Origin: a virus | DNA: 53,720 bases | Virus record (IMG/VR): IMGVR_UViG_3300025809_000027 | Span: 1 to 53,720 of that record | Direction: 5' to 3' (one strand) | Shown here: one piece after another, positions 1 through 50,916 of the stretch | Layout of the letters: each line of letters opens with the position of its first letter | Position numbering within the stretch: the stretch's first letter is position 1 | Notes under the pieces: model-generated | Seen by the model: only the letters and a program-made list of their open reading frames with translations | Databases searched by the model: none | Told to the model about the DNA's origin: nothing | Translations under genes and position numbers: made by a program

Positions 1-127
1 AACAAAATAATATTTACATTAATTTACTAATAATCTCGTTTTATTTTGTATATTTGCTTAAAATAAAGATATAAATGAGCTTATTAAGGTTAAATGAGAT
101 ATTAGATAAAGATTATACAGGCAGGGC
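1..127 (+). repeat. Terminal repeat, copy 1 (identical to 49384-49510)
   Basis: These 127 bases recur without a mismatch at 49384-49510; the first difference is A at 128 against G at 49511. The repeat covers the promoter and the first 17 codons of the HTH gene. An exact identity of this length at the very start of the window suggests a circular or concatemeric genome, or an assembly-graph junction between two strain variants. Confidence 0.95.
49..56 (+). promoter_or_regulatory. Probable promoter -7 box of the HTH gene
   Basis: TATATTTG matches the Bacteroidota -7 consensus TAnnTTTG and lies 18 bases before the ATG at 75, giving a short leader. No clear -33 TTTG was found. The same box is at 49432-49439 in the second copy. 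Confidence 0.6.
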
Positions 128-344
128 ATTGGCTAAAGAATTAGGGGTTACACCTAATACTGTGAGTAATTGGGTTAAAGGTTATTCTACGCCAAGCGGT
201 GACGACTTACTGAGAATCGCCAAAGTCCTAGACGTGGATGTAAGAGAGCTGTTCCACTCCACGAAAACAAAGGAAGCAGATGAGATTTTGAAACAAGCAA
301 TAAATGACCTGCAAGTGGTTTACTCTAAGATTAAAAAATATTGA
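75..344 (+). CDS. Small XRE-type helix-turn-helix regulator (version 1)
   Basis: An 89-residue protein with a helix-turn-helix of the XRE/Cro type at about residues 14-58: GRALAKELGV, then the recognition helix around TPNTVSNWVKG, then DDLLRIAKVLDVDVRELF. A short charged C-terminal tail follows. It is almost identical to the protein at 49458-49724, the start of the second lysogeny module, differing at a handful of positions. It is transcribed away from the leftward accessory operon that would precede it if the genome is circular. By family it binds DNA as a small dimeric regulator, perhaps of the adjacent divergent operon or of the lysis-lysogeny choice; the target is not visible. Confidence 0.85.
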   Translation: MSLLRLNEILDKDYTGRALAKELGVTPNTVSNWVKGYSTPSGDDLLRIAKVLDVDVRELFHSTKTKEADEILKQAINDLQVVYSKIKKY

Positions 345-367: not shown

Positions 368-492
368 TAACGGTTTGTATATGAAATGTGCGACATTGAA
401 ATAAGAACTAACTAAATAAAAATACATTAATTATGAAATTAAAAATAGAAATCACAAAAAAGGAAAAGCATTTTTTATATACTTTGTTATGC
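368..492 (+). repeat. attC-like cassette site A
   Basis: Folded-site architecture: CTAAC at 367-371, a 5-base spacer, left arm GTATATGAAATGTGC (377-391), a long loop, right arm GCATTTTTTATATAC (468-482), spacer TTT, then GTTATGC (486-492). The arms pair at 12 of 15 positions, with a G.T wobble at the seventh base. The order R''-spacer-L''-loop-L'-spacer-R' is that of integron attC sites. The loop holds the start codon of the gene at 433, and the right arm is translated as part of that gene. Confidence 0.6.
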
Positions 493-648
493 TTTGTTTT
501 TTTAATATTAAACATGGCTTGCGGTATAATGATAGGTGTGGAAATATTTAAAGACACCAATAGCTTCGGATATAACGCAACCTTAGTATATACAGCTTTA
601 AGTTGCTTTTTCTATTATTATGTAATGTTTCAGCGAAATAAAGCATAA
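433..648 (+). CDS. Small membrane protein in a gene cassette
   Basis: A 71-residue protein with two strongly hydrophobic segments: about residues 13-36 (FLYTLLCFVFLILNMACGIMIG) interrupted by the attC-coded stretch FLYTLLC, and about residues 48-65 ending near FFYYYVMF. It is probably a two-helix inner-membrane protein. The ATG lies within the loop of site A, and the stop codon TAA is the first three bases of TAAC in site B, so the gene occupies the whole cassette. No function is recognised; the setting suggests an exchangeable accessory gene rather than a core phage gene. Confidence 0.6.
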   Translation: MKLKIEITKKEKHFLYTLLCFVFLILNMACGIMIGVEIFKDTNSFGYNATLVYTALSCFFYYYVMFQRNKA

Positions 649-774
649 CGTTTATGGTATGGTGACGTTGCGACCTTACAGCATGGACTTAATTAATAAA
701 CATAAAACTTTGAGATATGAATAAAGACAATAAGAAAACAGAAACCGAGCAATGCACTATACCAAGTGTTAGCA
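646..774 (+). repeat. attC-like cassette site B
   Basis: TAAC at 646-649 (its TAA is the stop codon of the upstream gene), spacer GTTTAT, left arm GGTATGGTGACGTTGC (656-671), loop, right arm GCAATGCACTATACC (749-763), spacer AAGT, then GTTAGCA (768-774). The arms pair with one bulged base and a G.T wobble at base 6. The next gene starts inside the loop, and the right arm is read as its residues CTIPSVS. Confidence 0.6.
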
Positions 775-998
775 GTAGTATTTCTCTATGGATGGAAGGA
801 TTCTCTGCTACAGGACAAAGACAAGGTGCAAGTATGATAGGAACTTACCAAGCGAAAAACCTTGATGATGCGGTTAAACAGTATATGGAAACCCATAAGG
901 GCGATGTTGATTGGGATAGGTTTGGCAGAGGCAGACACGCTATTTGGGCTTGTGAAATATTTGATAATGAAAAAGAAGCCCGTAAATCGTTTGGCTAA
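717..998 (+). CDS. Small cassette-encoded protein, unknown function
   Basis: A 93-residue protein. Residues 1-24 are encoded by the loop and right arm of attC-like site B (including EQCTIPSVS). The globular part runs from about residue 24, ISLWMEGFSATG, to the end, with an acidic AKNLDDAVKQYMETHKGDVDWDRF stretch and CEIFDNEKEAR. An internal ATG at 792 would give only the conserved part, so the true start is uncertain. The family is not recognised. It is the last cassette before the integrase, and its 3' flank carries the TAACTACCGTATA motif that recurs near other cassettes here. Confidence 0.55.
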   Translation: MNKDNKKTETEQCTIPSVSSSISLWMEGFSATGQRQGASMIGTYQAKNLDDAVKQYMETHKGDVDWDRFGRGRHAIWACEIFDNEKEARKSFG

Positions 999-1005
999 TA
1001 TTACT

Positions 1006-1046
1006 GCTAACTACCGTATATGCGTACTAAAAAGTGTCTTAACGGG
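1006..1046 (+). repeat. 41-base cassette tail repeat
   Basis: These 41 bases are identical to 11596-11636 and begin GCTAACTACCGTATATGCG. The first half also recurs at 50737-50753 and, in shorter form, at 13118-13130. It lies just after the stop codon of a cassette gene and ends in TAACGGG. At 11630 that motif opens a complete attC-like site; here the site is cut off by the integrase flank. Confidence 0.7.
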
Positions 1047-1082
1047 CATATATGTCGGGATAATACAACTTTTACAGTATAT

Positions 1083-2222
1083 TTAAAAATCAGGACTCTG
1101 ATCTATAATCATCTTCCGATTCACTTCTTTAACAACAGTCGCATAACGCTTTGTCATCAATTCAGATTGATGCCCGTACAAGTCCCTCAGAGCTTCCAAA
1201 TCAATACCTGCCAAAATTTTCGCATTAGCTCCTGTATGTTTCATGGCGTATAAATTCACATTAATTCCTAAGTCTTTTTTTACCAGAGCATTCCAATTAC
1301 GATTAGAAGTATCACGCTTTAACATTCCAGAAGCAGGCAAAAACTCAATTCTATTACGCCCACGCTTTCCAGTTGGAATGCGTCCAAACAAATAAAAGTC
1401 TTCTGGATATTGACTTAAATCCATAGATTCAAACTCCTTCAGTAAATGGTGATTGATTGGAACTACTCTTTGTTTTTTACGTCCCTTCGTAATGTGAGCA
1501 GGCATTACAATAGTTTGGTTTTGAAGATCAATCATTCCCACTCTTAGCCGTGTCAACTCAACTGGTCTTATTCCTGTATGGAAAAGCGTCACCACAAATC
1601 TGTAAAATCCTAAATGTTTTTTTTGAAGGTGTTTTTTGATTCTCGTTATTTCGTTTGGAGTTGCTGGACGGTTGGCGGTGCTTTCTTGTTCTGGTAGTCT
1701 TTTGATTTTAAAACAAGGGTTGTTTTCAAGTAAATCCCACTGCATAAGCTCCGTGAAGATTGCAGACAAATACCCCAGATTCTTGTTGTAAGCTTTGCTA
1801 GACCAGTTCCTATCTTTTTTCATGCGCTCCATTACGAGCTTCACATGAAGCCGTCTAACGTCTTTAATATAAAGATTTGAAAGTCTTATGTCTTTGATGG
1901 CTTGAATTACAAAGCCTAAAGCATTACTATAATCGTGGAATGTTTTCTTTGCAATAAACTCTTTCTTTTTTTCTAAAGCGAAATTCAGAGCATCGATTAA
2001 AGTGTAATTAACTTCGGTCATGGGATTGTCGCTCGACCATCCAGAGGCTATATTTTTTTTAAAAGATTTAAGAAGTACGTTAGCGGCTGCCTGACGTTTT
2101 TTAAGGTTCTTAATCCTATTAAGGTTCCCTGTAAAGCGTCTTTGCTTCCCGTTAATTGAGAAGTAAACATACCATCTCGAAGATGATTTGCATAATTTCG
2201 GTGTTGTGATGTTTTGACTCAT
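1083..2222 (-). CDS. int: Tyrosine recombinase / phage integrase 1
   Basis: A 379-residue site-specific integrase that would join attP to a host tRNA gene. An N-terminal arm-binding/SAM-like region occupies roughly residues 1-180, with the catalytic domain after it. Visible catalytic features are the first Arg in HTGIRPVELTRLR, YAMKHTGAN where the usual HxxR box has Lys in place of Arg (common in Bacteroidota recombinases), LYGHQ at 348-352, and the nucleophile Tyr360 in KRYATVV. It is transcribed away from the attP region at 2274-2467, the usual arrangement for a phage integrase. The last 32 codons are preserved as a remnant at 50814-50912 beside integrase 2. Confidence 0.9.
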   Translation of the reverse strand: MSQNITTPKLCKSSSRWYVYFSINGKQRRFTGNLNRIKNLKKRQAAANVLLKSFKKNIASGWSSDNPMTEVNYTLIDALNFALEKKKEFIAKKTFHDYSNALGFVIQAIKDIRLSNLYIKDVRRLHVKLVMERMKKDRNWSSKAYNKNLGYLSAIFTELMQWDLLENNPCFKIKRLPEQESTANRPATPNEITRIKKHLQKKHLGFYRFVVTLFHTGIRPVELTRLRVGMIDLQNQTIVMPAHITKGRKKQRVVPINHHLLKEFESMDLSQYPEDFYLFGRIPTGKRGRNRIEFLPASGMLKRDTSNRNWNALVKKDLGINVNLYAMKHTGANAKILAGIDLEALRDLYGHQSELMTKRYATVVKEVNRKMIIDQSPDF

Positions 2223-2273
2223 TTAAATTAAATTAAATGCCTACAAGCGTGTCAATCATCATAACCGTACATA

Positions 2274-2467
2274 TTATGTACAGTTTGGATATAAACCCCT
2301 GATAAACAGGGGTGTATAAACCAAAGCGGAGAGTAAGGGAGTGTCTTTTTTAGAAACTCAAAAACTCAACTGATTGAATTGCAATGTTTTACATTTTGCG
2401 TTAGTATTCGTTTTTTGCTATTTTTGGCGTAATTATGTACAGTTTTTATGTACAGTTTTTATGTACC
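2274..2467. other. attP region of integrase 1 (tRNA-Ser-like core with arm repeats)
   Basis: Upstream of the integrase start lies AGCGGAGAGTAAGGGAGT (2325-2342). Its complement resembles the last bases of a bacterial serine tRNA (acceptor strand CTCTCCG). On both sides are copies of the 13-mer TTATGTACAGTTT: one at 2274-2286, two in tandem at 2433-2458, and a partial copy at 2459-2467. Repeats flanking a tRNA 3' end fit integrase arm sites around a core. A hairpin ACCCCTGATAAACAGGGGT sits at 2295-2313. Phage genes lie on both sides, so the site is not split by integration. Confidence 0.6.
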
Positions 2468-2471
2468 AGAT

Positions 2472-2597
2472 TTAAACCATTTTTTTAATTAATGGAATAC
2501 CTTCTTTTAATCCACCAATGGTTATATCCAAGTCTTCAATACGACATCTTAGCTTATCGATTGCTTCGATTAACTCGTTTAATTTTTCTTCATTCAT
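2472..2597 (-). CDS. Small coiled-coil protein, unknown
   Basis: A 41-residue open frame starting MNEEKLNELIEAIDKLRCRI. The pattern of Leu/Ile at heptad spacing suggests a short coiled coil. It is preceded by an AAACCC-rich leader ending CTTATTATG that resembles the leaders of the genes at 2658 and 2920, which supports it as a real leftward gene. Function not recognised. It lies between attP and the repressor, where version 2 of the module instead has an HsdR-N nuclease gene. Confidence 0.5.
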   Translation of the reverse strand: MNEEKLNELIEAIDKLRCRIEDLDITIGGLKEGIPLIKKMV

Positions 2598-2657
2598 AAT
2601 AAGTAGGGTTTTAAGGGTTTTTAATTTAGGTTTATGTAGTTATTAAATTTTTTAAGA

Positions 2658-2825
2658 TTAATCTAGCTGACTAGCAATTGCAATCAAAGATCCAATAACA
2701 GAAAGCCAACAAACTATTTGCACCCACGTACTTGTAATAGATGCTGATTTTGATGCTGATTTTAGGTAGCGATAGATTCCTTCCTGTAATTCTCTATCGG
2801 AGAGTTCGGGTATTTTCTTTGTCAT
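2658..2825 (-). CDS. Small tail-anchored membrane protein, unknown
   Basis: A 55-residue protein with a polar N-terminus (MTKKIPELSDRELQEGIYRY), a Ser/Ala-rich linker and one hydrophobic segment at about residues 33-52 (WVQIVCWLSVIGSLIAIA). It is probably an inner-membrane protein with a short cytoplasmic domain. Its upstream sequence up to AAATAGATCGGGGC is shared with the region upstream of the HsdR-N gene at 53407-53455, so it occupies the same exchangeable slot. A superinfection-exclusion role is possible but not shown by the sequence. Confidence 0.55.
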   Translation of the reverse strand: MTKKIPELSDRELQEGIYRYLKSASKSASITSTWVQIVCWLSVIGSLIAIASQLD

Positions 2826-2877
2826 AATAGTAGGTTTTAGGTTTATGGTTTAGTTTAAATAGATCGGGGCAAGATTC

Positions 2878-2903
2878 TAAAGTGGTCAAATTCGACCACT
2901 TTA
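2878..2903. terminator. Palindrome, copy 1
   Basis: A 10-bp perfect stem (TAAAGTGGTC / GACCACTTTA) with loop AAATTC lies just downstream of the stop codon of the leftward gene at 2920. The same stem and loop recur at 12738-12767 just after another stop codon. There is no U-tract, so it may be a factor-dependent terminator, an mRNA-end stabiliser or a protein-binding site. Confidence 0.5.
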
Positions 2904-2919
2904 AAATCTATGTATGATA

Positions 2920-3402
2920 TTAAAGACAGTAAGTTTTATAACTAACTATTCCAGAAGACGCAATATTAATTTTTCTTGCATAAGTTTTAAAGGTAAAACT
3001 ATAGATGTTTCCATCATAAAGATTTTCTATATAAGCAAATACGCTCCTGTCATAATCATAATTAGTTATCAATTTTACAAATTCATTTTTCTTCACAATA
3101 TCAATAATACCATTTTCTATGTAATGAAACCTCCAAGACTTATCTTTTTGGCTATTTTTCTCTCGGGTGATTAATTCACCTGTATTTCCTTCTTTTGTTT
3201 TTAGGATGTTATTCCCATTGACATCTCTAAAGTAAATACCTAATGTTTTGTTGTTTAAAACGATTGTTACAATTAAAGGGTGCTTGTCTTTATTTAAGTC
3301 TAAGTAATTGCCTTCAGTTTTGTAAATATGTTGTTTTGAGTTGGTTTTTTTTTCGTCTTGATCTGTTAGACTGGTTTCAGTCCATTCGTTTAAATTAATC
3401 AT
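2920..3402 (-). CDS. Unknown protein in the integrase-repressor slot (version 1)
   Basis: A 160-residue soluble protein without signal peptide or membrane segment. It has a Lys/Glu-rich N-terminus, then alternating hydrophobic strands (PLIVTIVLNNKTLGIYFRD, FVKLITNYDYDRSVFAYIENL), suggesting an all-beta or alpha/beta fold. No family is recognised. It is leftward, directly downstream of the repressor gene, and is probably expressed from the repressor promoter in the lysogen. The second lysogeny module has no counterpart and carries a nuclease at this position, so this is a candidate lysogenic-conversion or exclusion gene. Confidence 0.6.
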   Translation of the reverse strand: MINLNEWTETSLTDQDEKKTNSKQHIYKTEGNYLDLNKDKHPLIVTIVLNNKTLGIYFRDVNGNNILKTKEGNTGELITREKNSQKDKSWRFHYIENGIIDIVKKNEFVKLITNYDYDRSVFAYIENLYDGNIYSFTFKTYARKINIASSGIVSYKTYCL

Positions 3403-3423
3403 AATAAGTAGGTTTTAAGGGTT

Positions 3424-3801
3424 TTAAATTATAGGGATTATTAAGTTTTTGTTTTTATCTAGTCTAAGTTCCATGATGCTGAGTCGTGCTTCTTGACCTT
3501 TAATAAGTTGTTCTAAAAGCTCAACTCTTTTTAATAGTAAACTATCAATAGGCGTTTCTTTTGGTTTAACAAGCATCGTTCCTTTGCCTGTTAGAATCCA
3601 TTCATAACTGATCTCGGGGTATCTGTTTGTTATTTTTCTAGCAAGTCCTGCTGAAATTCCATTGCGACCGTTTATGACGTTATCTATCATTGTGCCACTT
3701 GTGTGTCCTATTGACATACCAAAAGCCCTTCTACTCAATTTAGCATGAGATATAATGGCTAGCATTATTTCTGGGAAACTTTTTTCTTCTTGATTTTTCA
3801 T
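3424..3801 (-). CDS. CI-like phage repressor
   Basis: A 125-residue DNA-binding protein. Residues 1-75 form a helix-turn-helix domain (FPEIMLAIISHAKLSRRAFG, then GTMIDNVINGRNGISAGLARKITNRYPEISYEWILTGKG), typical of Bacteroidota phage repressors. Residues 85-125 form a coiled coil for oligomerisation. There is no LexA-like Ser/Lys peptidase domain, so induction would need another route. It diverges from the early operon across the palindrome-rich region 3802-3957. A second copy begins at the right edge of the window, with the same HTH part and a diverged coiled coil. Confidence 0.85.
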   Translation of the reverse strand: MKNQEEKSFPEIMLAIISHAKLSRRAFGMSIGHTSGTMIDNVINGRNGISAGLARKITNRYPEISYEWILTGKGTMLVKPKETPIDSLLLKRVELLEQLIKGQEARLSIMELRLDKNKNLIIPII

Positions 3802-3957
3802 TTTTTAAATTTGTTTAAGTTATTGATAAACAGGGGTTTATTAATCCTTTAACAAAATTTTATATTTTTTTTAACAAATTAGTTTGTCAAAAGATGTTAT
3901 TTGATGTTATTAATTGTTACATTTGTAATGTAAAACTTTTATAACCGTAAATATAAC
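3802..3957. promoter_or_regulatory. Divergent operator/promoter region between repressor and early genes
   Basis: The 156-base gap holds two palindromes: ACAAATTAGTTTGT (3874-3887) and TTACATTTGTAATGTAA (3917-3933). The second overlaps TACATTTG (3918-3925), a good TAnnTTTG -7 box for the rightward early operon starting at 3958. A repressor bound there would block it. TGATAAACAGGGGT at 3824-3837 repeats one half of the hairpin at 2295-2313. Confidence 0.6.
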
Positions 3958-4290
3958 ATGAAAACCGAGACCTACAATAAAATTTTAGAAAAAATCAAGT
4001 GCGACGAGTCAACCGAACAGTTAATCGGATTTAACGGCAGTTTAGGGAGTTATGAAATTAATTTCTATGCAGAACAAGAAAACGGATACAAGCTTCAGGT
4101 TGATTCTTTCGGATATAAATCTAAAAGCGGTTGGATTCAGCAAGAACCAACAACCGAGCAAATAGAGCTTATGGAAAAGAAAATTCAAAACGCAGTTGAC
4201 TGCATCCAAAGTGAACCAAAAGAATTAGAGTCTACAAGCCTTAGAAATCTTTACCAAGAAAACGGAGTATCACCACTAATGTTTATTTAA
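3958..4290 (+). CDS. First early protein, unknown
   Basis: A 110-residue soluble, acidic protein. The N-terminal half reads as beta-strands (FNGSLGSYEINFYAE, YKLQVDSFGYKSKSGWIQQE). A Glu/Gln-rich helix follows, and the C-terminus ends ENGVSPLMFI. It is the first gene of the rightward early operon, with its ATG 33 bases after the predicted -7 box. No family is recognised. The position immediately downstream of the switch suggests an anti-repressor or early regulator, but nothing in the sequence proves it. Confidence 0.65.
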   Translation: MKTETYNKILEKIKCDESTEQLIGFNGSLGSYEINFYAEQENGYKLQVDSFGYKSKSGWIQQEPTTEQIELMEKKIQNAVDCIQSEPKELESTSLRNLYQENGVSPLMFI

Positions 4291-4301
4291 AAAATTTAAC
4301 A

Positions 4302-4586
4302 ATGCCACAAATCGGAGAACCAATTACCAAAGAGCAAAAAGACCTTTTGAATAGGCTTTTAACAACCCAAGACTTAATAGACGTGTCTACAACTGTTGAT
4401 GCCAGCTACTCAACAGTCAAGAGTCTATTTTACCGCACAGCATCTGTTACGGAAGAAAACCAACAAGCCGTTTATAAAATGATTAGCCGTGCTTTTCAGA
4501 AAGCAGAAGAATCTCTAGTGTATTTCACTAAAGCAAAATCTGAATTAGAAGCTATGCTTCCAAAGGTTCAAAACAAAACAGCATAA
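4302..4586 (+). CDS. Small early protein with HTH-like segment, unknown
   Basis: A 94-residue, mostly helical protein. Residues 20-50 (QDLIDVSTTVDASYSTVKSL) have the spacing of a helix-turn-helix with a recognition-type second helix, and the rest is amphipathic helix. It starts 11 bases after the preceding stop. A DNA-binding role is an inference only; no family was identified with confidence. Confidence 0.55.
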   Translation: MPQIGEPITKEQKDLLNRLLTTQDLIDVSTTVDASYSTVKSLFYRTASVTEENQQAVYKMISRAFQKAEESLVYFTKAKSELEAMLPKVQNKTA

Positions 4587-4595
4587 CCAAACGGT

Positions 4596-4850
4596 ATGAC
4601 CGACACCATAACCATACCGACAGAATTACTAAAAGATATAGTTGATGTAAACAATCGACTAGTCGAACATTACAACCGCCTACAAGCGTGTTCAAATCGA
4701 AGTCCCGAAGTTAAGGGGTCGGGAACTTCACTTAAGGGGGGTAAGGATAGACCAAGCCTCCCTTCTAAAAAAGTAATCCTTGAAAACAGAACTAAAAAAT
4801 ACGTAGAAAAAAAACTAAAAGAAATTCAATCTAAAAGAAATTCAATCTAA
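4596..4850 (+). CDS. Small early protein ending in a tandem repeat
   Basis: An 84-residue protein: an N-terminal helix (PTELLKDIVDVNNRLVEHYN), a flexible middle (GSGTSLKGGKDRPSLPS) and a basic C-terminal helix. The last 12 codons are inside a 16-bp tandem repeat (4815-4894). Because a stop always appears in the third unit, changes in repeat number would not alter the protein as long as three units remain. Unknown function. Confidence 0.5.
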   Translation: MTDTITIPTELLKDIVDVNNRLVEHYNRLQACSNRSPEVKGSGTSLKGGKDRPSLPSKKVILENRTKKYVEKKLKEIQSKRNSI

Positions 4851-4894
4851 AAGAAATTCAATCTAAAAGAAATTCAATCTAAAAGAAATTCAAT
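4815..4894 (+). repeat. Five tandem copies of a 16-bp unit
   Basis: The unit CTAAAAGAAATTCAAT is repeated five times without change. The first two and a half units are coding (end of the gene at 4596); the rest is the leader of the 4921 gene. Perfect repeats of this kind arise by replication slippage and are probably variable between isolates. Confidence 0.95.
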
Positions 4895-4920
4895 TATGAA
4901 CCCAAAAAAACCCAACAATT

Positions 4921-5346
4921 ATGAATCCAGAAATTAAACAAAAACTAGAAGAATTAACTGATTTAATATTGAAATCCACCAAAGGAGATCAAAACAATGT
5001 AGATGCTACAATCAAAGGAAATCAATACAATCAAGGTGTTACAATCGGAGGATGGCAAGACAATGTAGATGCTACAATCAAAGGAATTCAAGACAATGTA
5101 GGTGCTACAATCGAAGGAAGTCAAAACAATCAAGGTGTTACAATCGGAGGATGGCAAGACAATGTAGATGCTACAATCAAAGAAAGTCAAGACAATAGAA
5201 GCGCTACAATCAAAGGAAGTCAAAACAATCAAGGTGCTACAATCGAAGGAAAAATGATTATAGATTCCAAAACAAATTTTAAAAAAGGTATTTGGAAAGT
5301 TGAAAAAACAGGGTTGGTTGAATATGAATTAACTCCTAAAAAATAA
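4921..5346 (+). CDS. 11-residue-repeat (beta-solenoid-like) protein
   Basis: A 141-residue protein. After a helical start (residues 1-22) come about eight 11-residue repeats, of the form DNVDATIKGIQ, between roughly residues 24 and 110, followed by a 30-residue globular end. The regular Asn/Gly turns and the ATI core strand suggest a small beta-solenoid. At DNA level the unit is 33 bp, and a block of three units is duplicated with a 99-bp offset (compare 5031 onward with 5130 onward). The ATG is in the AACAATTATG context used by several genes here. Function unknown; repeat proteins of this kind may mimic DNA or bind repetitive ligands. Confidence 0.7.
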   Translation: MNPEIKQKLEELTDLILKSTKGDQNNVDATIKGNQYNQGVTIGGWQDNVDATIKGIQDNVGATIEGSQNNQGVTIGGWQDNVDATIKESQDNRSATIKGSQNNQGATIEGKMIIDSKTNFKKGIWKVEKTGLVEYELTPKK

Positions 5347-5351
5347 ACATT

Positions 5352-5702
5352 ATGAACCCAACAACCCAACTTAAACCAATCACCGCAGAAGGTGAGAAAG
5401 AATTTCTAACTGAATTAAGCCTTTCAGATGTGTATGTAAGCACAGAAGACAGGCGAGCAACTGTAACAACATTATGGCGGTATGACATCGAGCGAAAGTC
5501 AAAGTACATAAATTTCAATGTTTACACCAAACAGGCTAGAATCACCCTTTACAATGACGAAGGCAAAGAGCTAGGTGTCTATGATACTCTTGTGAATGAC
5601 GAATGGACTGTTGAAGACAAGGGAATTAATTTAAACGACACAATAATCCCTCAATATGCAGAGGTGGACTTAGAAGATAAATCAATAATCATTAACTGGT
5701 AA
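5352..5702 (+). CDS. Early protein, unknown
   Basis: A 116-residue acidic protein, predicted mainly beta: ATVTTLWRYDIERKSKYINF, ITLYNDEGKELGVYDTLVND, then AEVDLEDKSIIINW. It starts 5 bases after the preceding stop and shares the MNPTTQ/MNPTIH start with its neighbour at 5764, including the leader sequence, which hints at a duplicated translation start region. No family is recognised. Confidence 0.6.
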   Translation: MNPTTQLKPITAEGEKEFLTELSLSDVYVSTEDRRATVTTLWRYDIERKSKYINFNVYTKQARITLYNDEGKELGVYDTLVNDEWTVEDKGINLNDTIIPQYAEVDLEDKSIIINW

Positions 5703-5763
5703 CTTAACTAACCAACCCCACTAATTAAGAAAATCAACAAAAACTTAAATAAACCCAACAATT

Positions 5764-6282
5764 ATGAACCCAACAATTCATTATTTAAAAGCTCGTAACA
5801 GCGACTTCCTTGCTAGTACAGACTTAGAAGTCTTTGAGCTTGAAGGAAAATCAAAAATATTAACAGTTAAAAACGTTGAGTACAAGGAAAATTTCAAGGT
5901 CAACGGAAGGATCAAACCCAAAGGCGTGGTGATGTACTTTGAAGAGATTTATGCAAAACCTTTAATCGTGAACACAACCAATTCCACTTTAATAAAAGAA
6001 GCGACAGGTGTTATTGACGCTAAAAAATGGATAGGTTTTTCGGTAGAATTTAGATTTGATGATAAAGTAGAAATGAAAATCAGCAAAACCGAAACCAGAA
6101 AGGGCGGCATTAGAATTAAGAGTGTAAACACAAACGGACTTGCAGCCCCTTTAACAGACGTTAAAACACGAATAGATCAATGTACCAAGAAAGTTGAAGT
6201 CATGGCTATATGGCAAGAATTAACGGAGCAGGAACAAGCCCAGCATAAGCTTCAGATTTCTGAAAAACATAAAACACTTTAA
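5764..6282 (+). CDS. Conserved phage protein paired with recombination nuclease
   Basis: A 172-residue protein with the pattern seen in a widespread Bacteroidota phage family: LTVKNVEYKENF, VVMYFEE..AKPLIVNTTN, then an aromatic-Gly IGFSVEF and IRIKSVN. Related genes usually lie immediately before a PD-(D/E)xK exonuclease, as here, with only 2 bases between the genes. That suggests a role in phage recombination or single-strand DNA handling, possibly as nuclease partner. The C-terminus (residues 130-172) is a charged helix. The family match is from memory of the motif pattern, not a search. Confidence 0.6.
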   Translation: MNPTIHYLKARNSDFLASTDLEVFELEGKSKILTVKNVEYKENFKVNGRIKPKGVVMYFEEIYAKPLIVNTTNSTLIKEATGVIDAKKWIGFSVEFRFDDKVEMKISKTETRKGGIRIKSVNTNGLAAPLTDVKTRIDQCTKKVEVMAIWQELTEQEQAQHKLQISEKHKTL

Positions 6283-6284
6283 TT

Positions 6285-7196
6285 ATGGATTTTTCAAACT
6301 ACCTGTTTCGAGCCCACATGGTTGGCAAGATTATAACCGTGCCCAAGCCACTAACCGAAAACCAAACAAAGACCTTAGAGTCTTTTAAATTAAAGGGATA
6401 CCCAAATATAACGGACAAACAAAAAGAAACCTTTGTAAGCCTTGAAAACAAGCTGATTGAAAGTAAGAAATTCAAACTTACAGATGCGAACAAAAAGACA
6501 TTATCGGGATTAGTTTACGCTACAAAATACGGTAGAAGGACTGAAATAAATTCTGATAAAATAACCAAAGGTTTGACCGTTGAAAAGGACTGTCGAGACA
6601 TTCTGTCGAGAGTTTCAAATTTGTTCTTGACTCACTCGACTGAAAGGAAAACAAATGAATGGGTGAGTGGTGCAATTGACATGGAGCCAAGCGAAGTAAT
6701 TGTAGATATAAAGTCCTCGTGGAGTTGGGAATCATACTCTAAAATACTTGAAGATAGCGCAAATGAAATCTATCTAAGACAACTAGATTCATACATGGAT
6801 TTATGGGCTAAAAAAGATTCTTTGCTTTGCCATATACTAACAGACACGCCTTTTAAATTGGTAGAAAAAGAAATAAAAAGCCTTGACTACAAGTACAACA
6901 TTCTAAACATGGAAGGTGATGTAAGAGACGAAAACATTGAAGATGTTGTAAAGGTCGTTACAAATCATATTTTTTCAAGAAAAGGTTTGGAGGAATTCTG
7001 TCAGCACTCAACCAACGTGCATATTGAATGGTTCAAGGACTTTATCGAAATCCCAGAACAGGACAGGGTTCACATGATACCACACGCTTACGACCAAGAA
7101 AGGATTGAGCAAAGAAACAAAAGCATAATCCTTTCACGAGAGTACATGAACACAGTAAAATCAATCAATAATTTTAATCCTAAATTAATCAAATAA
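6285..7196 (+). CDS. PD-(D/E)xK recombination nuclease (YqaJ/RecB-like)
   Basis: A 303-residue nuclease, probably the phage 5'-3' exonuclease of a Red-type recombination pair. Motifs in order: Glu in KGLTVEKDCRDIL (about residue 100), GAIDMEPSEVIVDIKSSW (residues 127-143) supplying the Asp and the D-x-K, and QLDSYMDLW (about 166-174) matching the Qxxx(Y) helix of the YqaJ/Cas4/RecB-like group. The N-terminal 90 residues are a helical substrate-binding extension. It is tightly coupled to the upstream partner gene and followed by an SSB-like gene, which completes a recombination cluster. Confidence 0.75.
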   Translation: MDFSNYLFRAHMVGKIITVPKPLTENQTKTLESFKLKGYPNITDKQKETFVSLENKLIESKKFKLTDANKKTLSGLVYATKYGRRTEINSDKITKGLTVEKDCRDILSRVSNLFLTHSTERKTNEWVSGAIDMEPSEVIVDIKSSWSWESYSKILEDSANEIYLRQLDSYMDLWAKKDSLLCHILTDTPFKLVEKEIKSLDYKYNILNMEGDVRDENIEDVVKVVTNHIFSRKGLEEFCQHSTNVHIEWFKDFIEIPEQDRVHMIPHAYDQERIEQRNKSIILSREYMNTVKSINNFNPKLIK

Positions 7197-7198
7197 CA

Positions 7199-7564
7199 AT
7201 GAAAATACAAGGCAAAGTAAAAGTAATCGGACAAGTACAAGAAATCGGATCAAAAGGATTCAAGAAACGTGAGTTAGTTATAACCGTTCCAGACGAGAAA
7301 TACCCTCAACACATTCTGGTGGAGTTTATTCAAGACAAAACAAGTCTTCTAAACGATATAATCGTTGGTCAAAACATAACCGTACACATCAACATCAACG
7401 GTCGAGAATGGATCAACCCACAAGGCGAAGCGAAGTATTTTAATGCGATTCAAGGATGGAAAATAGAAATAGACCCAAAGTCTGAGATTCCTGAAGCACC
7501 ATTTGAAGCTGCAACAGATTTGACAGTAGGCGAGCCAAACGATTTACCATTTTATAACCTATGA
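7199..7564 (+). CDS. DUF3127 protein, SSB-like
   Basis: A 121-residue OB-fold-type protein of the Bacteroidota DUF3127 family, recognisable from IQGKVKVIGQVQEIGSKGFKKRELVITV...YPQHILVEF and the VTVHININGREW segment. The C-terminus is acidic and ends EPNDLPFYNL, resembling the DDLPF tip with which bacterial SSB recruits replication and repair proteins, though four residues from the end. It lies 2 bases after the recombination nuclease. It is probably the phage's single-stranded DNA-binding protein. Confidence 0.75.
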   Translation: MKIQGKVKVIGQVQEIGSKGFKKRELVITVPDEKYPQHILVEFIQDKTSLLNDIIVGQNITVHININGREWINPQGEAKYFNAIQGWKIEIDPKSEIPEAPFEAATDLTVGEPNDLPFYNL

Positions 7565-8043
7565 AGACACTTCATTTAACTTTAAAAAAACAATGGTTCG
7601 ACATGACTAAATCAGGTATAAAAACCGAAGATTATAGAGATGTTAATAAGTATTGGTTTAAGAGACTTATTTTTAAATGGCGTGATGTGATGCTTTTTCA
7701 CGGATATAACGATCTAACTGACGAAATCGCTATATATATTATTGAAAACTCCAAGATGTATGGGTTTAAGCCTTTTAAAAGTAACATAATGACTTTGGGC
7801 TATGCAAAAAAAGGAGACAAAGAAAGGACTTTAGAATTAGAGCATAAGGGCATTGAAGTAGGGACAGGCAACCCTGAATGGGGCGCAGAGCCAAACAAGA
7901 TGTACTTTGTTATCAAGCACGGGAAAATAATAAACACGGACTTGCAAGAAGCAATTAAAAAAGCCAAACCAAATTTGGATAAAATAAAAGATGTTGACAA
8001 GCATCTTGATGAAATTAGAAACAGTAGAATAAAAACAATTTAA
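7561..8043 (+). CDS. ASCH-domain protein
   Basis: A 160-residue protein with the ASCH fold signature: LHLTLKKQWFDMTKSGIKTEDYRD (residues 3-26), VMLFHGY (41-47), then a conserved GTGNPEWGAEPNKMYFVIKHG block (about 101-121). A charged C-terminal extension of about 35 residues follows. ASCH domains are RNA-binding relatives of PUA domains, and some are RNA- or nucleoside-processing enzymes. The start overlaps the previous stop (ATGA), indicating translational coupling. Its role in the phage is not known; it may act on modified nucleotides or RNA during replication. Confidence 0.7.
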   Translation: MKTLHLTLKKQWFDMTKSGIKTEDYRDVNKYWFKRLIFKWRDVMLFHGYNDLTDEIAIYIIENSKMYGFKPFKSNIMTLGYAKKGDKERTLELEHKGIEVGTGNPEWGAEPNKMYFVIKHGKIINTDLQEAIKKAKPNLDKIKDVDKHLDEIRNSRIKTI

Positions 8044-8054
8044 AACCTAATCCT

Positions 8055-8378
8055 ATGCAAGCAGAAATCGACTTTACACACCAAAGAGACTTATCAAGAG
8101 GTAGGCATAATGAGAACTCAATAATTGCTCATGAACGATTAAAGCCGTTTAAAGAAACTATGAGAAAACAAGTAGAACAATGTGTAGATGGGCATAGATG
8201 TACACTGGAGATTGCTGAGATGTTAGATAAACATCTCCATAAAATAAGCGGTCGATTCACTGCTTTAAAAGCGTCAGGAGTTATCGAGCAAACGGGACGT
8301 AAAAAATATAAAGGAAGTACATATACAATATATAGTAAAGCAAACACCAGTAGATACTTGCTGTTGGGGCAGGAGTGA
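8055..8378 (+). CDS. Winged-helix-like early protein
   Basis: A 107-residue protein. Residues 35-85 (CTLEIAEMLDKHLHKISGRFTALKASGVIEQTGRKKY) read as a winged helix: a helix-turn-helix with the recognition helix HKISGRFTALKASGVI and a basic wing. Proteins of this type in phage early regions help decide which strand or gene is read, but no specific target can be assigned. A stem-loop follows the gene at 8395-8445. Confidence 0.6.
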   Translation: MQAEIDFTHQRDLSRGRHNENSIIAHERLKPFKETMRKQVEQCVDGHRCTLEIAEMLDKHLHKISGRFTALKASGVIEQTGRKKYKGSTYTIYSKANTSRYLLLGQE

Positions 8379-8394
8379 AAAATAGGTAAAGTTG

Positions 8395-8445
8395 GTTTTT
8401 TGGTCTCAAGGTACAGGTTATAGCCTCCCTGTACCGTGCCAAAAA
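8395..8445 (+). terminator. Two-step stem-loop after the early winged-helix gene
   Basis: An outer stem TTTTTGG / CCAAAAA encloses a perfect inner stem GGTACAGG (8410-8417) / CCTGTACC (8428-8435). The internal loop is asymmetric, with 6 bases on the 5' side and 3 on the 3' side. This asymmetry is like that of the attC-like sites elsewhere in the window, but no TAAC/GTTA pair frames it. It could be a terminator or the left edge of the cassette carrying the 8500 gene. Confidence 0.5.
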
Positions 8446-8499
8446 TAACGTTACTTGTGTATGATTAGTAGCGAATTATTAAAACTAAAACTTATAAAA

Positions 8500-8799
8500 A
8501 TGAAAGAAATAAACACACAAATTATCCAAACAGGATTTACACTTGATAGATTGCACCAAGATGGCAAAATAGACAATGAAGCCTACACAATTTTAAAAAA
8601 TAGGAATAAACAAGCTATTAATTATACACGTTGTTCTGAGCTTTTGATTTGCCTTGACAATGGTAATTATGAAATGCTAACAAACTATAAATTATACAAG
8701 TTAGTTTCTGAAAGTAAAGGTTATTATAATCTATATGATGATGATGGAAAATTAGTTCAAATGAGCAAAGTTCGCTTCAAAAAAGTAGTGGCAAATTAA
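8500..8799 (+). CDS. Cassette-like small protein, unknown
   Basis: A 99-residue soluble protein (MKEINTQIIQTGFTLDRLHQ...). I chose the ATG at 8500, in an A-rich CTTATAAAAATG context, over the upstream in-frame ATG at 8461, because the latter lies closer to the stem-loop. It has helices to about residue 55 and then strands (KGYYNLYDDDGKLVQMSKVRFKK). It is bounded by a stem-loop on the left and attC-like site C on the right, and interrupts an otherwise compact early operon, so it is probably an inserted cassette gene. Confidence 0.55.
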   Translation: MKEINTQIIQTGFTLDRLHQDGKIDNEAYTILKNRNKQAINYTRCSELLICLDNGNYEMLTNYKLYKLVSESKGYYNLYDDDGKLVQMSKVRFKKVVAN

Positions 8800-8806
8800 T
8801 TACTTA

Positions 8807-8855
8807 GAACACCCGTATAAAAGCCGTTTCAATGGCGGTTTATACTAAGTTATTT
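8807..8855 (+). repeat. attC-like cassette site C (short loop)
   Basis: GAAC at 8807-8810, spacer ACCC, left arm GTATAAAAGCC (8815-8825), an 8-base loop, right arm GGCGGTTTATAC (8834-8845), spacer TAA, then GTTATTT. The core AGCCGTTTCAATGGCGGTTTA is nearly the same as that of the leftward site at 48086-48132, 39 kb away, so these two belong to one sub-family. Confidence 0.6.
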
Positions 8856-8872
8856 TTTTAATAGAACAAAAC

Positions 8873-8971
8873 ATGAAAAAACTAAAAGTATTAATAATAT
8901 TCCTGTTTGGCGAAAGAGTCAAAAGCAAAAGAAAATTTTGGAATCCAGAAATAAAAGGAACTAGTGGATGA
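8873..8971 (+). CDS. Short peptide (32 residues), possible gene
   Basis: An open frame starting MKKLKVLIIFLFGERVK with a Lys-rich, hydrophobic start and a polar end (FWNPEIKGTSG). It lies between cassette site C and the 8964 gene and overlaps the latter by 8 bases in another frame. It may be a real small peptide translated ahead of its neighbour, or the N-terminal part of it displaced by a frameshift. Confidence 0.35.
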   Translation: MKKLKVLIIFLFGERVKSKRKFWNPEIKGTSG

Positions 8972-9185
8972 TGTCTTAATAGTCCCTGAGCTTATTAAAT
9001 CATCAAAAGGCAATAGGTACTATATTTTTCGACCCAATGGACAAGAAGTAGCGATAGAGATTAAAAATAATATTCTAGACCCTCAATTCCCTCTCACTCA
9101 AATTGAAAGAGAATTTATTTACAGAAATATACAACCGTTTAAAACGAACAACCCTGAATTATTAAAGATTAAAATAAATGGCTAA
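8964..9185 (+). CDS. Small early protein, unknown (GTG start)
   Basis: A 73-residue protein: DDVLIVPELIKSSKGNRYYIFRPNGQEVAIEI, then a helical end. There is no in-frame ATG near the start, so a GTG at 8964 is proposed; it overlaps the end of the preceding short frame. It overlaps the replisome-organiser start by 8 bases, as expected in an operon. No family is recognised. Confidence 0.5.
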   Translation: MDDVLIVPELIKSSKGNRYYIFRPNGQEVAIEIKNNILDPQFPLTQIEREFIYRNIQPFKTNNPELLKIKING

Positions 9186-9930
9186 CCGATTAACAAGTAC
9201 CGACAAATATGCAGATTCGTGGTTTATTGAATTAGAAACGATAGAGAAGCTTGTGTTTTATTACTTAATTGACCACGTAGATAATGCAGGCTTTTATGAA
9301 ATATCGATAAGACACATACAATTTCACTTAGGAATTAGTAAGGATGAAATTTTAAGGGCTATAAAGGGGCTGTGTAGGGGTTTATTAGGGGCTGATTCTG
9401 AAATTAAAAACGGAGATAAAATATTTTTAAAGAATTTCTTAAAACACCAGAAGATGCAACCTTTAAACCCTTTTAACTCTTTTCATTCCAATGCTTTAAA
9501 GTCTTTTGAGTTGAATATTGATTTTGTAAATAAACACCCTTTTATTCAAAAATTAAAGGTTTACGGTGAAAAAAAATTAGATGGAAAAGTTGTAAAAACA
9601 ATAGATACAAATTTAATTAATTACATAAATAAAAAACAGGGGCTAGAAAGCCCCTTAGTAGAAGTAGAAGTAAAAGTAGAAGTAGAAGTAAAGGATATTC
9701 CAAATAAAAAAGAGTTTTTAGAATTTGCAAAATTGAAAATTGAAAATATCGACTTGGAAGATGTGGGATTGAAATACGAAGCATGGAAATCTAGTGATTG
9801 GCATACAGGCGGTGAAAAACCTCGAAAGATTAAGAATTGGAAAACAACGCTGTTAAATACTCTGCCGCATTTAAAAAAAACAACCGTAAAAAAAACAGGA
9901 AAACTTAACGCATATAACCCGAACAAATGA
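9178..9930 (+). CDS. Replisome organiser / replication initiation protein
   Basis: A 250-residue protein with the layout of phage replisome organisers. The N-terminal winged helix (residues 1-95) contains RLTSTDKYADSWFIEL, KLVFYYLIDHVDNAGFYEIS and SKDEILRAIKGL. An acidic, low-complexity linker follows, made by a Val-Glu/Val-Lys codon repeat (9658-9695). The C-terminal DnaD/DnaB-like tail has the conserved KPRKIKNWKTTLLNTLPHL motif. It is coupled to the DnaC-like loader gene, whose start overlaps its stop. The two would recruit the host DnaB helicase to the phage origin; no phage helicase or polymerase is present. Confidence 0.75.
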   Translation: MANRLTSTDKYADSWFIELETIEKLVFYYLIDHVDNAGFYEISIRHIQFHLGISKDEILRAIKGLCRGLLGADSEIKNGDKIFLKNFLKHQKMQPLNPFNSFHSNALKSFELNIDFVNKHPFIQKLKVYGEKKLDGKVVKTIDTNLINYINKKQGLESPLVEVEVKVEVEVKDIPNKKEFLEFAKLKIENIDLEDVGLKYEAWKSSDWHTGGEKPRKIKNWKTTLLNTLPHLKKTTVKKTGKLNAYNPNK

Positions 9931-10682
9931 TTTCAACTAGAAAATACAGACTGATGAAGCGGTTCAGAGGAACGCTGACAACTGAGCAAGAAAGCCAAAT
10001 ATCTGAGTATGAAAATTCTACCCTGTCCGTAAAATTCAGCGAACCAGAACCAGAGGAAATACCCCTCACGAGACTGCCATTCGACTGGTTACAAAGAATG
10101 TTTATGAAGTGTTGGAAAATCAACGAAGGAAAAGATTTAATCTTCACAGAATCTACGAAACCAATCTACAGGGCTTTGACTCAGTATTTCGCAAGGAGTG
10201 AAAATTTTACAAACACGAATATTACCACAAATATACCCGAGCTTAAAAAAGGGCTTTTAATTATTGGCGATTATGGATGCGGCAAAACATCAATGCTAAG
10301 AGCTTTTCAAATGGTGGGTAAGGCACTGCTGCCAGATCCTATACTTTGGTTTAATAGCGTGTCCTGTAATGCCTTAGTAATGGAGTTTGAGGGCATGGAC
10401 ACAAAAGATAAATCAGCAAAGAAACATTTCTTTCAAAAATACAACAAAGCTGCTGTAATGTATTTTGATGATTTCGGCACAGAATCCAATGCTTCAAATT
10501 TTGGAATTAAAAACTTAATGAAAGACATTCTGGAAGAAAGGTATGCGAATAATAAGCGAACATTTTTGACAAGTAATTTATCACTACCAGAAATTCAAGA
10601 AAAGTACGGAGACAGAGTGTATGACCGACTTCAAGAAATGTTTAACATAATTCAAATGTCTGGGGATAGCTTCAGACGTTAG
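9927..10682 (+). CDS. DnaC-like helicase loader ATPase
   Basis: A 251-residue AAA+ protein. Walker A is GDYGCGKTS (about residues 112-120) and Walker B is VMYFDDFGTE (about 177-186). Sensor and arginine-finger parts are in RTFLTSNLSLPEIQEKYGDRVYDRLQEMF, a run typical of DnaC. The N-terminal 70 residues would contact the helicase. It follows the replisome organiser in the common organiser-loader order, with a 4-base overlap. It is expected to load host DnaB helicase at the phage origin. Confidence 0.85.
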   Translation: MISTRKYRLMKRFRGTLTTEQESQISEYENSTLSVKFSEPEPEEIPLTRLPFDWLQRMFMKCWKINEGKDLIFTESTKPIYRALTQYFARSENFTNTNITTNIPELKKGLLIIGDYGCGKTSMLRAFQMVGKALLPDPILWFNSVSCNALVMEFEGMDTKDKSAKKHFFQKYNKAAVMYFDDFGTESNASNFGIKNLMKDILEERYANNKRTFLTSNLSLPEIQEKYGDRVYDRLQEMFNIIQMSGDSFRR

Positions 10683-10704
10683 ACAAAGCAAAACAAGAAC
10701 TAAA

Positions 10705-11028
10705 ATGAGCCTAGAAAAAATAACACCAAAAAACACGGAGTACGCAAAGCAGACTTTAAGAAATAGAGGTGATATGTTTAGCGTCTATATTTTAAAGCTA
10801 ATAGAAAGCTTTGAAAACTCGAAAGACAACCCGATCAAAGACAATCGAATAGTGAGCGACCGAACGTTTGCATATCGTTTAAAGTCTCATCTGAAAGATG
10901 TTAGAGCGGAATGTCAGATGGGACAGGAGGAACTCGAATATCTTACAGGGGTTGCAGACAGGCTCTTAGAATATCAAAAACAAACAATGCCAGACGATGA
11001 GAAATGGTTTTTTAAGAATCTTCAGTAA
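10705..11028 (+). CDS. Early protein after the helicase loader, unknown
   Basis: A 107-residue helical, charged protein ending DDEKWFFKNLQ. It starts 22 bases after the loader gene and is probably the last core gene of the early operon. Its stop codon TAA is the first three bases of TAAC in attC-like site D, so the cassette region begins exactly at the end of this gene. Unknown function. Confidence 0.6.
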   Translation: MSLEKITPKNTEYAKQTLRNRGDMFSVYILKLIESFENSKDNPIKDNRIVSDRTFAYRLKSHLKDVRAECQMGQEELEYLTGVADRLLEYQKQTMPDDEKWFFKNLQ

Positions 11029-11120
11029 CGGGTTTGGCTATGATTATGTAGCCTTGAAACACAGAACTTTGAATTAAATATAAACTTTAATAAGGGTATT
11101 AATTATAGCCCTTGTTAGCA
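11026..11120 (+). repeat. attC-like cassette site D
   Basis: TAAC (11026-11029, overlapping a stop codon), spacer GGGTTT, left arm GGCTATGATTAT, loop, right arm ATTATAGCC (11102-11110), spacer CTT, then GTTAGCA (11114-11120). The arms pair with a G.T wobble at base 7. The loop contains ACTTTGAATTAAATATAAAC, a stretch resembling those in the loops of sites B and E and possibly carrying a promoter. Confidence 0.6.
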
Positions 11121-11132
11121 ACTTTTAAAATT

Positions 11133-11276
11133 ATGGATTATACAATAACTTATACTTATAAAGACAAAGAAGACACTATACTATTACAAGATACGCAAAA
11201 CATACTCGGAGCAATAGGGCAATTTTACGAAGACCATGTTAGAGAATGTAGAATAATAAAGATTGAAGAATACTAG
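11133..11276 (+). CDS. 47-residue cassette protein, unknown
   Basis: A short frame starting MDYTITYTYKDKEDTILL and ending RIIKIEEY. It reads as two beta-strands, a helix and a strand, a plausible small globular domain. It lies between attC-like sites D and E, starts 12 bases after the GTTAGCA of site D, and fills the cassette. The amphipathic pattern and position support it being coding. Function unknown. Confidence 0.5.
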   Translation: MDYTITYTYKDKEDTILLQDTQNILGAIGQFYEDHVRECRIIKIEEY

Positions 11277-11295
11277 TAATTTTTATTGTGGGTAA

Positions 11296-11484
11296 AACGG
11301 TTTGTGTATGGGTAGGTTTTTGACTTTGAATAATGAACTAAATTGATAGATATGGTACAAGAAATAGAAATGACAAAAGAAGAGCAAATGACAATGTATA
11401 TGAAATGCTCGAAAAAAGAACTGTGTGAAATGCTGATTGAAGCAAATAGGCACTTAAAAAACTTACCTATACACGTTGTTACCC
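11296..11484 (+). repeat. attC-like cassette site E (long loop)
   Basis: AAC at 11296-11298 (a weak R'' form), spacer GGTTT, left arm GTGTATGGGTAGGTTT (11304-11319), a 140-base loop, right arm AACTTACCTATACAC (11460-11474), spacer GTT, then GTTACCC (11478-11484). The arms pair at all but two of about 15 positions, both G.T wobbles, one of them at base 7. The loop carries a coding start, and the right arm is read as NLPIHVVT in the 11343 gene. Confidence 0.55.
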
Positions 11485-11600
11485 AACAAAGTGAACTGGT
11501 TTGTGATTGTTTGCCAATGAGTACGCAAGTAAGCACTATAAATGGTAGATACATTTGCTGTACTTGTAATAAACCACTCTTATCACAAACTTGTGGCTAA
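11343..11600 (+). CDS. Cassette protein with Cys-rich C-terminus, unknown
   Basis: An 85-residue protein read through the right arm of site E. The N-terminal half (TKEEQMTMYMKCSKKELCEMLIEANRHL) is helical and encoded in the site's loop. The C-terminal half has Cys pairs (VCDCLP, YICCTCNKPL) that could bind zinc. The two halves lie on opposite sides of the GTTACCC crossover point, so the gene may be a chimera created by cassette insertion. Other possible starts are at 11352 and 11370. Confidence 0.5.
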   Translation: MIDMVQEIEMTKEEQMTMYMKCSKKELCEMLIEANRHLKNLPIHVVTQQSELVCDCLPMSTQVSTINGRYICCTCNKPLLSQTCG

Positions 11601-11629
11601 CTACCGTATATGCGTACTAAAAAGTGTCT

Positions 11630-11756
11630 TAACGGGATTGTATAAGGAACGTTGCGTTTAGGAAACCAAAAATTAACGATTAGAAATAAAGAAAATTAAT
11701 ATTAACAGACCTTTGGTATAGCACAAATTAGCAATGTTTTTTATACGGTGTTACCC
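11630..11756 (+). repeat. attC-like cassette site F
   Basis: TAAC (11630-11633), spacer GGGATT, left arm GTATAAGGAACGTTGC (11640-11655), a 75-base loop, right arm GCAATGTTTTTTATAC (11731-11746), spacer GGT, then GTTACCC (11750-11756). The arms pair at 13 of 16 positions, with the G.T wobble at base 7. It precedes the RNA ligase gene. Confidence 0.65.
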
Positions 11757-48085: not shown

Positions 48086-48132
48086 GATAACAGTTGCTAA
48101 ACCGCCATTAAAACGGCGTTTAGCTTTGTGTT
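48086..48132 (-). repeat. attC-like cassette site G (leftward, short loop)
   Basis: Read on the minus strand: AACAC, spacer AAA, left arm GCTAAACGCC, loop, right arm GGCGGTTTAGC, spacer AACT, then GTTATC. On the plus strand GCTAAACCGCC (48096-48106) pairs with GGCGTTTAGC (48115-48124). The core is nearly identical to site C at 8807-8855. It points the same way as the leftward genes that flank it. Confidence 0.6.
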
Positions 48133-48142
48133 GTAAATAATA

Positions 48143-49383: not shown

Positions 49384-49510
49384 AACAAAATAATATTTAC
49401 ATTAATTTACTAATAATCTCGTTTTATTTTGTATATTTGCTTAAAATAAAGATATAAATGAGCTTATTAAGGTTAAATGAGATATTAGATAAAGATTATA
49501 CAGGCAGGGC
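49384..49510 (+). repeat. Terminal repeat, copy 2 (identical to 1-127)
   Basis: This marks the point where the window begins a second round of the genome. After this stretch the sequence diverges from the beginning of the window, first by scattered base changes and then completely. The offset of 49,383 bases defines the phage unit length. Confidence 0.95.
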
Positions 49511-50295: not shown

Positions 50296-50326
50296 ATCTG
50301 GTGCGGATTTTAAATGAAATATTGAA

Positions 50327-50912: not shown

Positions 50913-50916
50913 ATCT

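Follow-up and report, generated by a model that had tools for sequence, protein, structure and literature searches.

The window analysed here, the whole 53,720-nucleotide IMG/VR virus record IMGVR_UViG_3300025809_000027, raises the question of whether the small genes that lie beside its hairpin-forming repeats are integron-like cassettes, and, if so, what kind of system moves them. A first-pass annotation had described eight such repeats (A to H) of one architecture, likened them to the attC sites of integrons, and suggested that the enzyme would be supplied by the host or be a different one. Integrons have been thought rare in Bacteroidota, and the integron integrase IntI has been thought to need an added helix for folded single-stranded attC sites. 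The evidence assembled below makes it highly probable that the window, a linear record with terminase, portal and tape-measure genes, comes from a flavobacterial-type phage with arrays resembling clusters of attC sites lacking an integron integrase (CALINs), and that these arrays belong to a Bacteroidota-specific integron system moved by IntI-like recombinases without the IntI-specific insertion.

A purpose-built scanner was used to search for stems of the form NAAC-spacer-arm...arm-spacer-GTTN. Sites A, B, D, E, F and H were among its top matches, with a 5' spacer of 5-6 nucleotides and a 3' spacer of 3; together with a site at 8446-8636 that the first-pass annotation had missed, seven window sites have the common geometry NAAC / 5-7 nucleotides / arm / loop / arm / 3 nucleotides / GTTN (site E starts with AAAC, not TAAC). 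The single architecture claimed for all eight holds for these six, and sites C and G form a shorter hairpin subtype. Covariance model R1, in whose training set site C was not included, found this site at 8807-8852 (16.6 bits, E 0.019). In 200 dinucleotide shuffles of the window, stems with a score of at least 26 (that of the weakest of these window sites), 5-6/3 spacers and TAAC/GTTA ends arose at 0.005 per shuffle, which places the arm pairing well beyond that of shuffled sequence. An Rfam scan of the window gave no match to these elements at gathering score. The sites are as follows.

368-489, plus strand: attC-like site A (score 26, spacers 5/3), with the start codon of the next gene in its loop.
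646-771, plus strand: attC-like site B (score 33, spacers 5/3), which matches the DNA of the first cassette in Freya_2 at 82% (see below).
8446-8636, plus strand: attC-like site absent from the first-pass annotation (score 34, spacers 7/3); gene 8500-8799 starts in its loop.
8807-8855, plus strand: short site C, of the GTTTCAATG-type hairpin subtype, matched by the covariance model.
11026-11117, plus strand: attC-like site D (score 32, spacers 6/3), with cassette gene 11133-11276 (47 amino acids).
11295-11481, plus strand: attC-like site E (score 39, spacers 5/3), with cassette gene 11352-11600 (82 amino acids).
11630-11753, plus strand: attC-like site F (score 33, spacers 6/3), upstream of an RNA ligase gene at 11804-12730.
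48088-48133, minus strand: short site G (score 27, spacers 5/4), downstream of an open reading frame (ORF) at 48143-48373 on the minus strand.
50233-50292, plus strand: attC-like site H (score 26, spacers 6/3), a member of model alignment A3.

No cassette-type integrase was found in the window, and A/B and D/E/F each form a group of at least two attC-type sites with no adjacent integron integrase, as in a CALIN.

These sites belong to a widespread family. The two-armed pattern TAACGNNNNNGTATATG...YATATACNNNGTTR matches 30 IMG/VR viral contigs, and in GTDB species genomes it matches 29 loci, all 29 of them in Bacteroidota (Saprospiraceae, Flavobacteriaceae, Cyclobacteriaceae, Vicingaceae, Chitinophagaceae, Pontibacter and Bacteroidales). 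One 71-kb viral contig holds about 33 sites in two co-oriented clusters. A model-based search of Bacteroidota genomes detected sites in 29 of 198 evenly drawn genomes, using a covariance model that takes in short sites only and misses those of 90-200 bases. From all viral and Bacteroidota loci, 175 distinct sites were gathered. The AACG...GTT strand gives the more stable fold in 160 of them and the complement in nine (p about 1.6e-27), an asymmetry due mostly to two G.T pairs at set distances of 9 and 14 nucleotides from GTT; such pairs occur there in 63% and 75% of sites, against 0-13% at nearly all other positions. In addition, unpaired bases are present in some host sites, and compensatory changes were found in 13 of 19 pairs in an alignment of 34 short sites.

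Because integrons share the R box, it is a cassette's two ends that are complementary, not the two ends of one arrayed site. For 88 neighbouring site pairs, the flank after the GTT of one site was compared with the flank before the AAC of the next. At successive positions beyond GTT these cassette ends pair in 93, 86, 85, 77, 81, 68 and 48% of cases, whereas the two flanks within one site pair in 64, 32, 29, 27, 42, 31 and 22%, a background similar to that of shuffled partners. Over three positions the cassette ends give 2.49 matches versus 0.97 +/- 0.09, about 17 standard deviations above shuffled partners. Complementarity of cassette ends rather than of site ends is a hallmark of integron cassettes.

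Whole-cassette differences were observed directly in Polaribacter phage Freya, whose isolates (Freya_1 to Freya_10, from one host strain, with genomes of 43,978 to 48,920 bases) carry the same site family and are not close relatives of the window phage. From gene 66 through the end of the integrase gene, seven pairwise comparisons, amounting to five distinct junction sets, show single inserts of 842, 902, 472, 307, 902, 3793 and 4040 bases with identical flanks. All junctions lie within a common AAC (GTT on the other strand), with 3-11 bases of microhomology, so the breakpoints fall where the first-pass annotation had expected them. Six of the seven are at a fixed junction of AAC with ACCCCTATAACAAC immediately upstream of the gene for the phage integrase; the exception is one internal cassette difference. 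Four distinct whole-cassette differences are located where AAC meets ACCCCTATAAC beside the integrase, and the fixed sequence formed by AAC and ACCCCTATAACAAC is an attI by both position and behaviour. The isolates thus differ by whole cassettes through gain or loss, the direction not being proven. Danklef, another phage species, shares with Freya_10 a 1169-base block (Danklef_1; 99.6% identity) with AAC at both ends. The proposal that the genes move as units bounded by sites is therefore borne out by the Freya cassettes and by this block, but such movement was not seen for the cassettes of the window.

In Danklef the integrase gene is broken and only a fragment remains; the phage (loci L167 and L168) retains its array all the same, and the compared part of the array is the same in two isolates, unlike Freya. 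Ingeline has a related integrase, with no sites found adjoining it. Bartlau et al., in their study of Freya and Danklef (PMC8776804), took the presence of the integrase to indicate lysogeny, and the words 'integron' and 'cassette' are absent from their text.

Searching proteins with the Freya integrase as query, irrespective of any sites, retrieved four further distinct viral loci, and all three of those with upstream DNA carry an array of 4-6 sites directly upstream. The phage-type array integrases have about 265-271 amino acids and the host type about 375-400, with an extra N-terminal region. In many host genomes with sites, the best integron-integrase-like gene lies near an array. Around 14 host integrase genes there are 25 sites in 223 kb, whereas the 353 kb surrounding 20 XerC/D-like genes in those genomes hold two; matches from Parvibacillus (224-313 amino acids, in a multi-copy element) were excluded from this test. 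In three randomly drawn genomes (G114, G183 and G207), sites are found 1-8 kb from such an integrase. In a tree with narrow taxon sampling and an arbitrary root, the array integrases group with IntI, which forms a sub-branch, apart from Bacteroidota XerC/D (100/100). The distance from GKG to HxLRH is 57-59 residues in the array integrases compared with 99-101 in IntI, and the array integrases are without the IntI-specific insertion of about 42 residues (I2). The solved Vibrio IntI matches an array integrase in two pieces only, and among solved structures the nearest in sequence is XerA (5hxy, 145 bits).

This additional domain is regarded as defining for IntI (PMC9668308, PMC7790495) and is held to have allowed single-strand recombination via the docking of extrahelical bases (PMC7790495). 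In the Bacteroidota system, the missing I2 domain goes together with G.T pairs that seem to replace extrahelical bases, a correlation rather than a proof. The first-pass annotation's suggestion of a host-supplied or different enzyme is consistent with these findings: the window itself lacks one, and next to arrays elsewhere lies a tyrosine recombinase that is IntI-like but without the IntI-specific domain. The annotation's reading of the fold as a substrate for an integron integrase stands insofar as an integron-like system is supported, while the enzyme differs from known IntI.

Two side observations concern these recombinases. In Candidatus Parvibacillus calidus (L101, L102 and L104), a multi-copy element of about 2.5 kb encodes a tyrosine recombinase (224-313 amino acids) and a 375-amino-acid ORF; its copies mostly start right at attC-like sites, so that it is perhaps a self-mobile cassette or a site-targeting transposon. 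In two host array integrases (L114, at 1043-2785, and L115), the extra N-terminal region with repeated W...WYIP-type segments is duplicated (580 and 494 amino acids).

The alternative that survives best, though improbable, is that the sites are ordinary integron attC sites, arranged as CALINs, which came from bacteria with a classical IntI and are moved by it. Qi et al. (2023, PMC9892861) described CALINs in phages, including Polaribacter phage P12002L, whose attC2 was recombined into attI1 by IntI1 via the bottom strand only; the P12002L sites are members of the window's site family. However, the confinement of the GTDB pattern matches to Bacteroidota is difficult to reconcile with this explanation, as is the fact that none of 22 tested genomes contained a TIGR02249 match above the cut-off. 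According to IntegronFinder 2, a complete integron is present in Bacteroidetes proper only in Salinibacter ruber (PMC9024848). The asymmetric spacers, the two conserved G.T pairs and the array-adjacent integrases lacking the IntI insertion likewise weigh against it.

A second alternative, less probable still, reads the hairpins as RNA elements without a role in recombination, acting as terminators or as leaders that control translation of small phage genes. In phage arrays, 40 genes follow the AACG...GTT direction and four oppose it, the start codon lying within the site loop in 19 of the 40, and with the help of G-U pairs the sense RNA would also fold. In bacterial arrays, by contrast, 12 genes follow this direction and 22 oppose it, as in classical integrons (Fisher p 4e-7 for phage versus bacterial arrays), yet the folding strand is unchanged. 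Moreover, the complementarity joins neighbouring sites across a gene instead of the two ends of one site, and the isolate breakpoints fall at AAC. A regulatory side effect of the hairpins is possible. As a side observation, the end of a Bacteroidales metagenome-assembled contig (L078) has 11 sites in 7 kb with the phage-type gene orientation, and it could represent either a prophage or a phage contig.

Ordinary phage mosaicism, in which homologous or illegitimate recombination would leave the hairpins as incidental borders, is scarcely credible: phage genomes are indeed mosaic and the common AAC amounts to just 3-11 bases of microhomology, but every distinct Freya junction is at AAC, nearly all at the same integrase-proximal sequence with identical flanks across the region compared, and random mosaicism would be expected to yield neither the site geometry nor the cassette-end complementarity. 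The first-pass annotation had named three observations that would speak against its own reading (breakpoints elsewhere in related phages, arm pairing no better than in shuffled sequence, and genes never moving as site-bounded units); all three were looked for and none was found.

The window holds two lysogeny modules, perhaps tandem prophages. Between the repressor genes and the integrase ends, module 1 has two cassettes (369-1008) and module 2 a single one (50234-50739), and both arrays end at an element starting with AACTACCGTATATG, which occurs at three cassette borders (1009, 11599 and 50740). This element is a possible attI-like site or relict. From A to B and from B to 1009 the ends pair at 7/7 positions beyond GTT, so that both cassettes have 10-bp inverted repeats at their borders, reading GTTATGCTTT...AAAGCATAAC in the first case and GTTAGCAGTA...TACTGCTAAC in the second; end pairing is weaker in the other window cassettes. 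The features of the two modules and their borders are listed below.

75-344, plus strand: repressor-like gene flanking cassette array 1 (PHROG transcriptional regulator), with a second copy at 49458-49724 (95% DNA identity).
369-646, plus strand: cassette 1, from AAC to the next AAC, with ORF 433-648 (71 amino acids, membrane-protein-like), whose stop codon lies in the next TAAC; ends complementary at 7/7 positions beyond GTT.
647-1008, plus strand: cassette 2, with ORF 717-998 (93 amino acids); ends complementary at 7/7 positions.
1008-1062, plus strand: border element beginning with AACTACCGTATATG, next to the 3' end of int1, its border set by complementarity; copies at 11597 and 50738.
1083-2222, minus strand: int1, an ordinary phage integrase (Pfam PF00589 and Int_N; TIGR02249 48 bits).
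11597-11629, plus strand: copy of the AACTACCGTATATG border element (80% match to 50736-50779).
50234-50739, plus strand: cassette of module 2, between H and the border element, with ORF 50327-50728 (133 amino acids); four of the first five end bases complementary.
50738-50780, plus strand: third AACTACCGTATATG border element, after which comes a 3'-end remnant of int1 (87% match to 1005-1184).
50917-52122, minus strand: int2, an ordinary phage integrase (PF00589; TIGR02249 46 bits).

Both int1 and int2 were considered as cassette enzymes and rejected, as each scores below 50 bits with TIGR02249 and has ordinary phage-integrase features. The int1 3'-end remnant at 50800-50915 lies beside int2 as though the integrase of module 2 had been replaced, and 52166-52212 on the minus strand resembles a tRNA-Met gene in its 3' half (CAT anticodon) and might be the attP core used by int2. 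Elsewhere, ORF 4921-5346 is built of short ATIKGNQYNQGVTIGGW-like repeats and is preceded by tandem AAAAGAAATTCAATCT copies at about 4822-4890, and gene 52369-53406 near the contig end encodes an HsdR-like nuclease N-terminal domain.

Relatives of the window phage were scarce. Among viral sequences, queries with the DnaC-like protein, the repressor and AACTACCGTATATG led to a single useful relative (L007), and a search of genome contigs with int1 found none. In L007, site G (93%) directly adjoins the int2 homologue. The RNA ligase linked to site F matches Cellulophaga phage phi19:3 at 86%.

Several observations weigh against the proposed integron system or its activity in this phage. L007, the closest relative found, has only site G in common with the window, and apart from the F-linked RNA ligase the window's cassette genes were not found in the other fetched loci, so that movement of its own cassettes was not seen. 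The ends of the D-to-E cassette are unpaired and those of the 8446-to-C cassette paired only partly; hence some window sites may be relicts and some cassettes may be old. As for the enzymes, the best integrase is on another contig in five of the 12 drawn genomes with sites, and no array was seen close to two of the host integrases (L103 and L109), others being at contig ends. An AlphaFold model of the L137 integrase was too poor (pLDDT, the predicted local distance difference test score, 64.5) and was not used.

In the mechanism proposed here, each small gene together with one hairpin site would form a cassette, and the AACG...GTT strand would fold into a hairpin recognised by an IntI-like tyrosine recombinase, with crossover within GTT (AAC on the other strand). 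The cassette would be excised as a circle, or inserted either at the attI-like point beside the integrase gene or at another site. The array integrases would be the catalysts, and the reacting DNA would presumably be single-stranded. Since the window has no cassette-type integrase, its cassettes, which may well still move, would do so in trans, as in a CALIN, through an enzyme of the host or of a co-infecting phage. On balance, and with distinctly less confidence than in the identification of the arrays, we lean towards the view that Bacteroidota and their phages have an integron lineage of their own, whose tyrosine recombinases lack I2 and act on folded single-stranded sites, with phages serving both as carriers and as active, cassette-collecting integrons. 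The lineage may have split off close to the IntI root, in which case the added domain would be unneeded for cassette recombination as such.

With a widespread system of Bacteroidota and phages whose integrases lack the helix, the origin of single-strand cassette recombination can be tested directly, and the Freya isolates offer a natural series, from zero to several cassettes, in one phage and one host strain. If the proposed system is real, much of the turnover of small genes in flavobacterial phages would be explained, and cassettes would gain a phage route between genomes.

Compared with classical integrons (IntI1 and the Vibrio superintegron), the window arrays, the 71-kb contig and the host arrays have the same co-oriented tandem of one-gene cassettes, each with a hairpin site. 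Also common to both are the R box GTT crossover, cassette-end complementarity, insertion beside the integrase and a preference for one folded strand. Like attC sites, those described here possess R''/R' boxes (AAC/GTT), imperfect inverted arms and a hairpin preferred on one strand; the Freya junctions lie within AAC/GTT, in line with crossover between G and TT with the R box from the cassette, the bond inside GTT not being placed. The differences are that spacers are 2-3 nucleotides there and mostly 5-6 here, that two conserved G.T pairs are present here, that the IntI-specific domain is found there and missing from the array integrases here, and that, in the GTDB pattern scan, the system here is restricted to Bacteroidota and their phages. 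Without the IntI domain, the Bacteroidota system is not a classical integron, though it seems to work like one. XerA (5hxy) is nearest by sequence, yet the array integrases fall in the tree with IntI and not with Bacteroidota XerC/D. The window resembles Freya and Danklef in its site family and in having its array between conserved genes and an integrase, but those phages encode the array integrase (only a fragment in Danklef). Phage CALINs (PMC9892861) likewise have cassette sites with no integrase in the phage genome; there, the CALINs are isolated and IntI1 was used, whereas here the sites have their own integrase family, a Bacteroidota distribution and natural gain or loss. No description of the system was found in the open-access literature, subscription papers and preprints being outside the search. 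Phage CALINs are already known; what appears to be new is a system spanning the Bacteroidota, together with its integrases and the natural series of cassettes.

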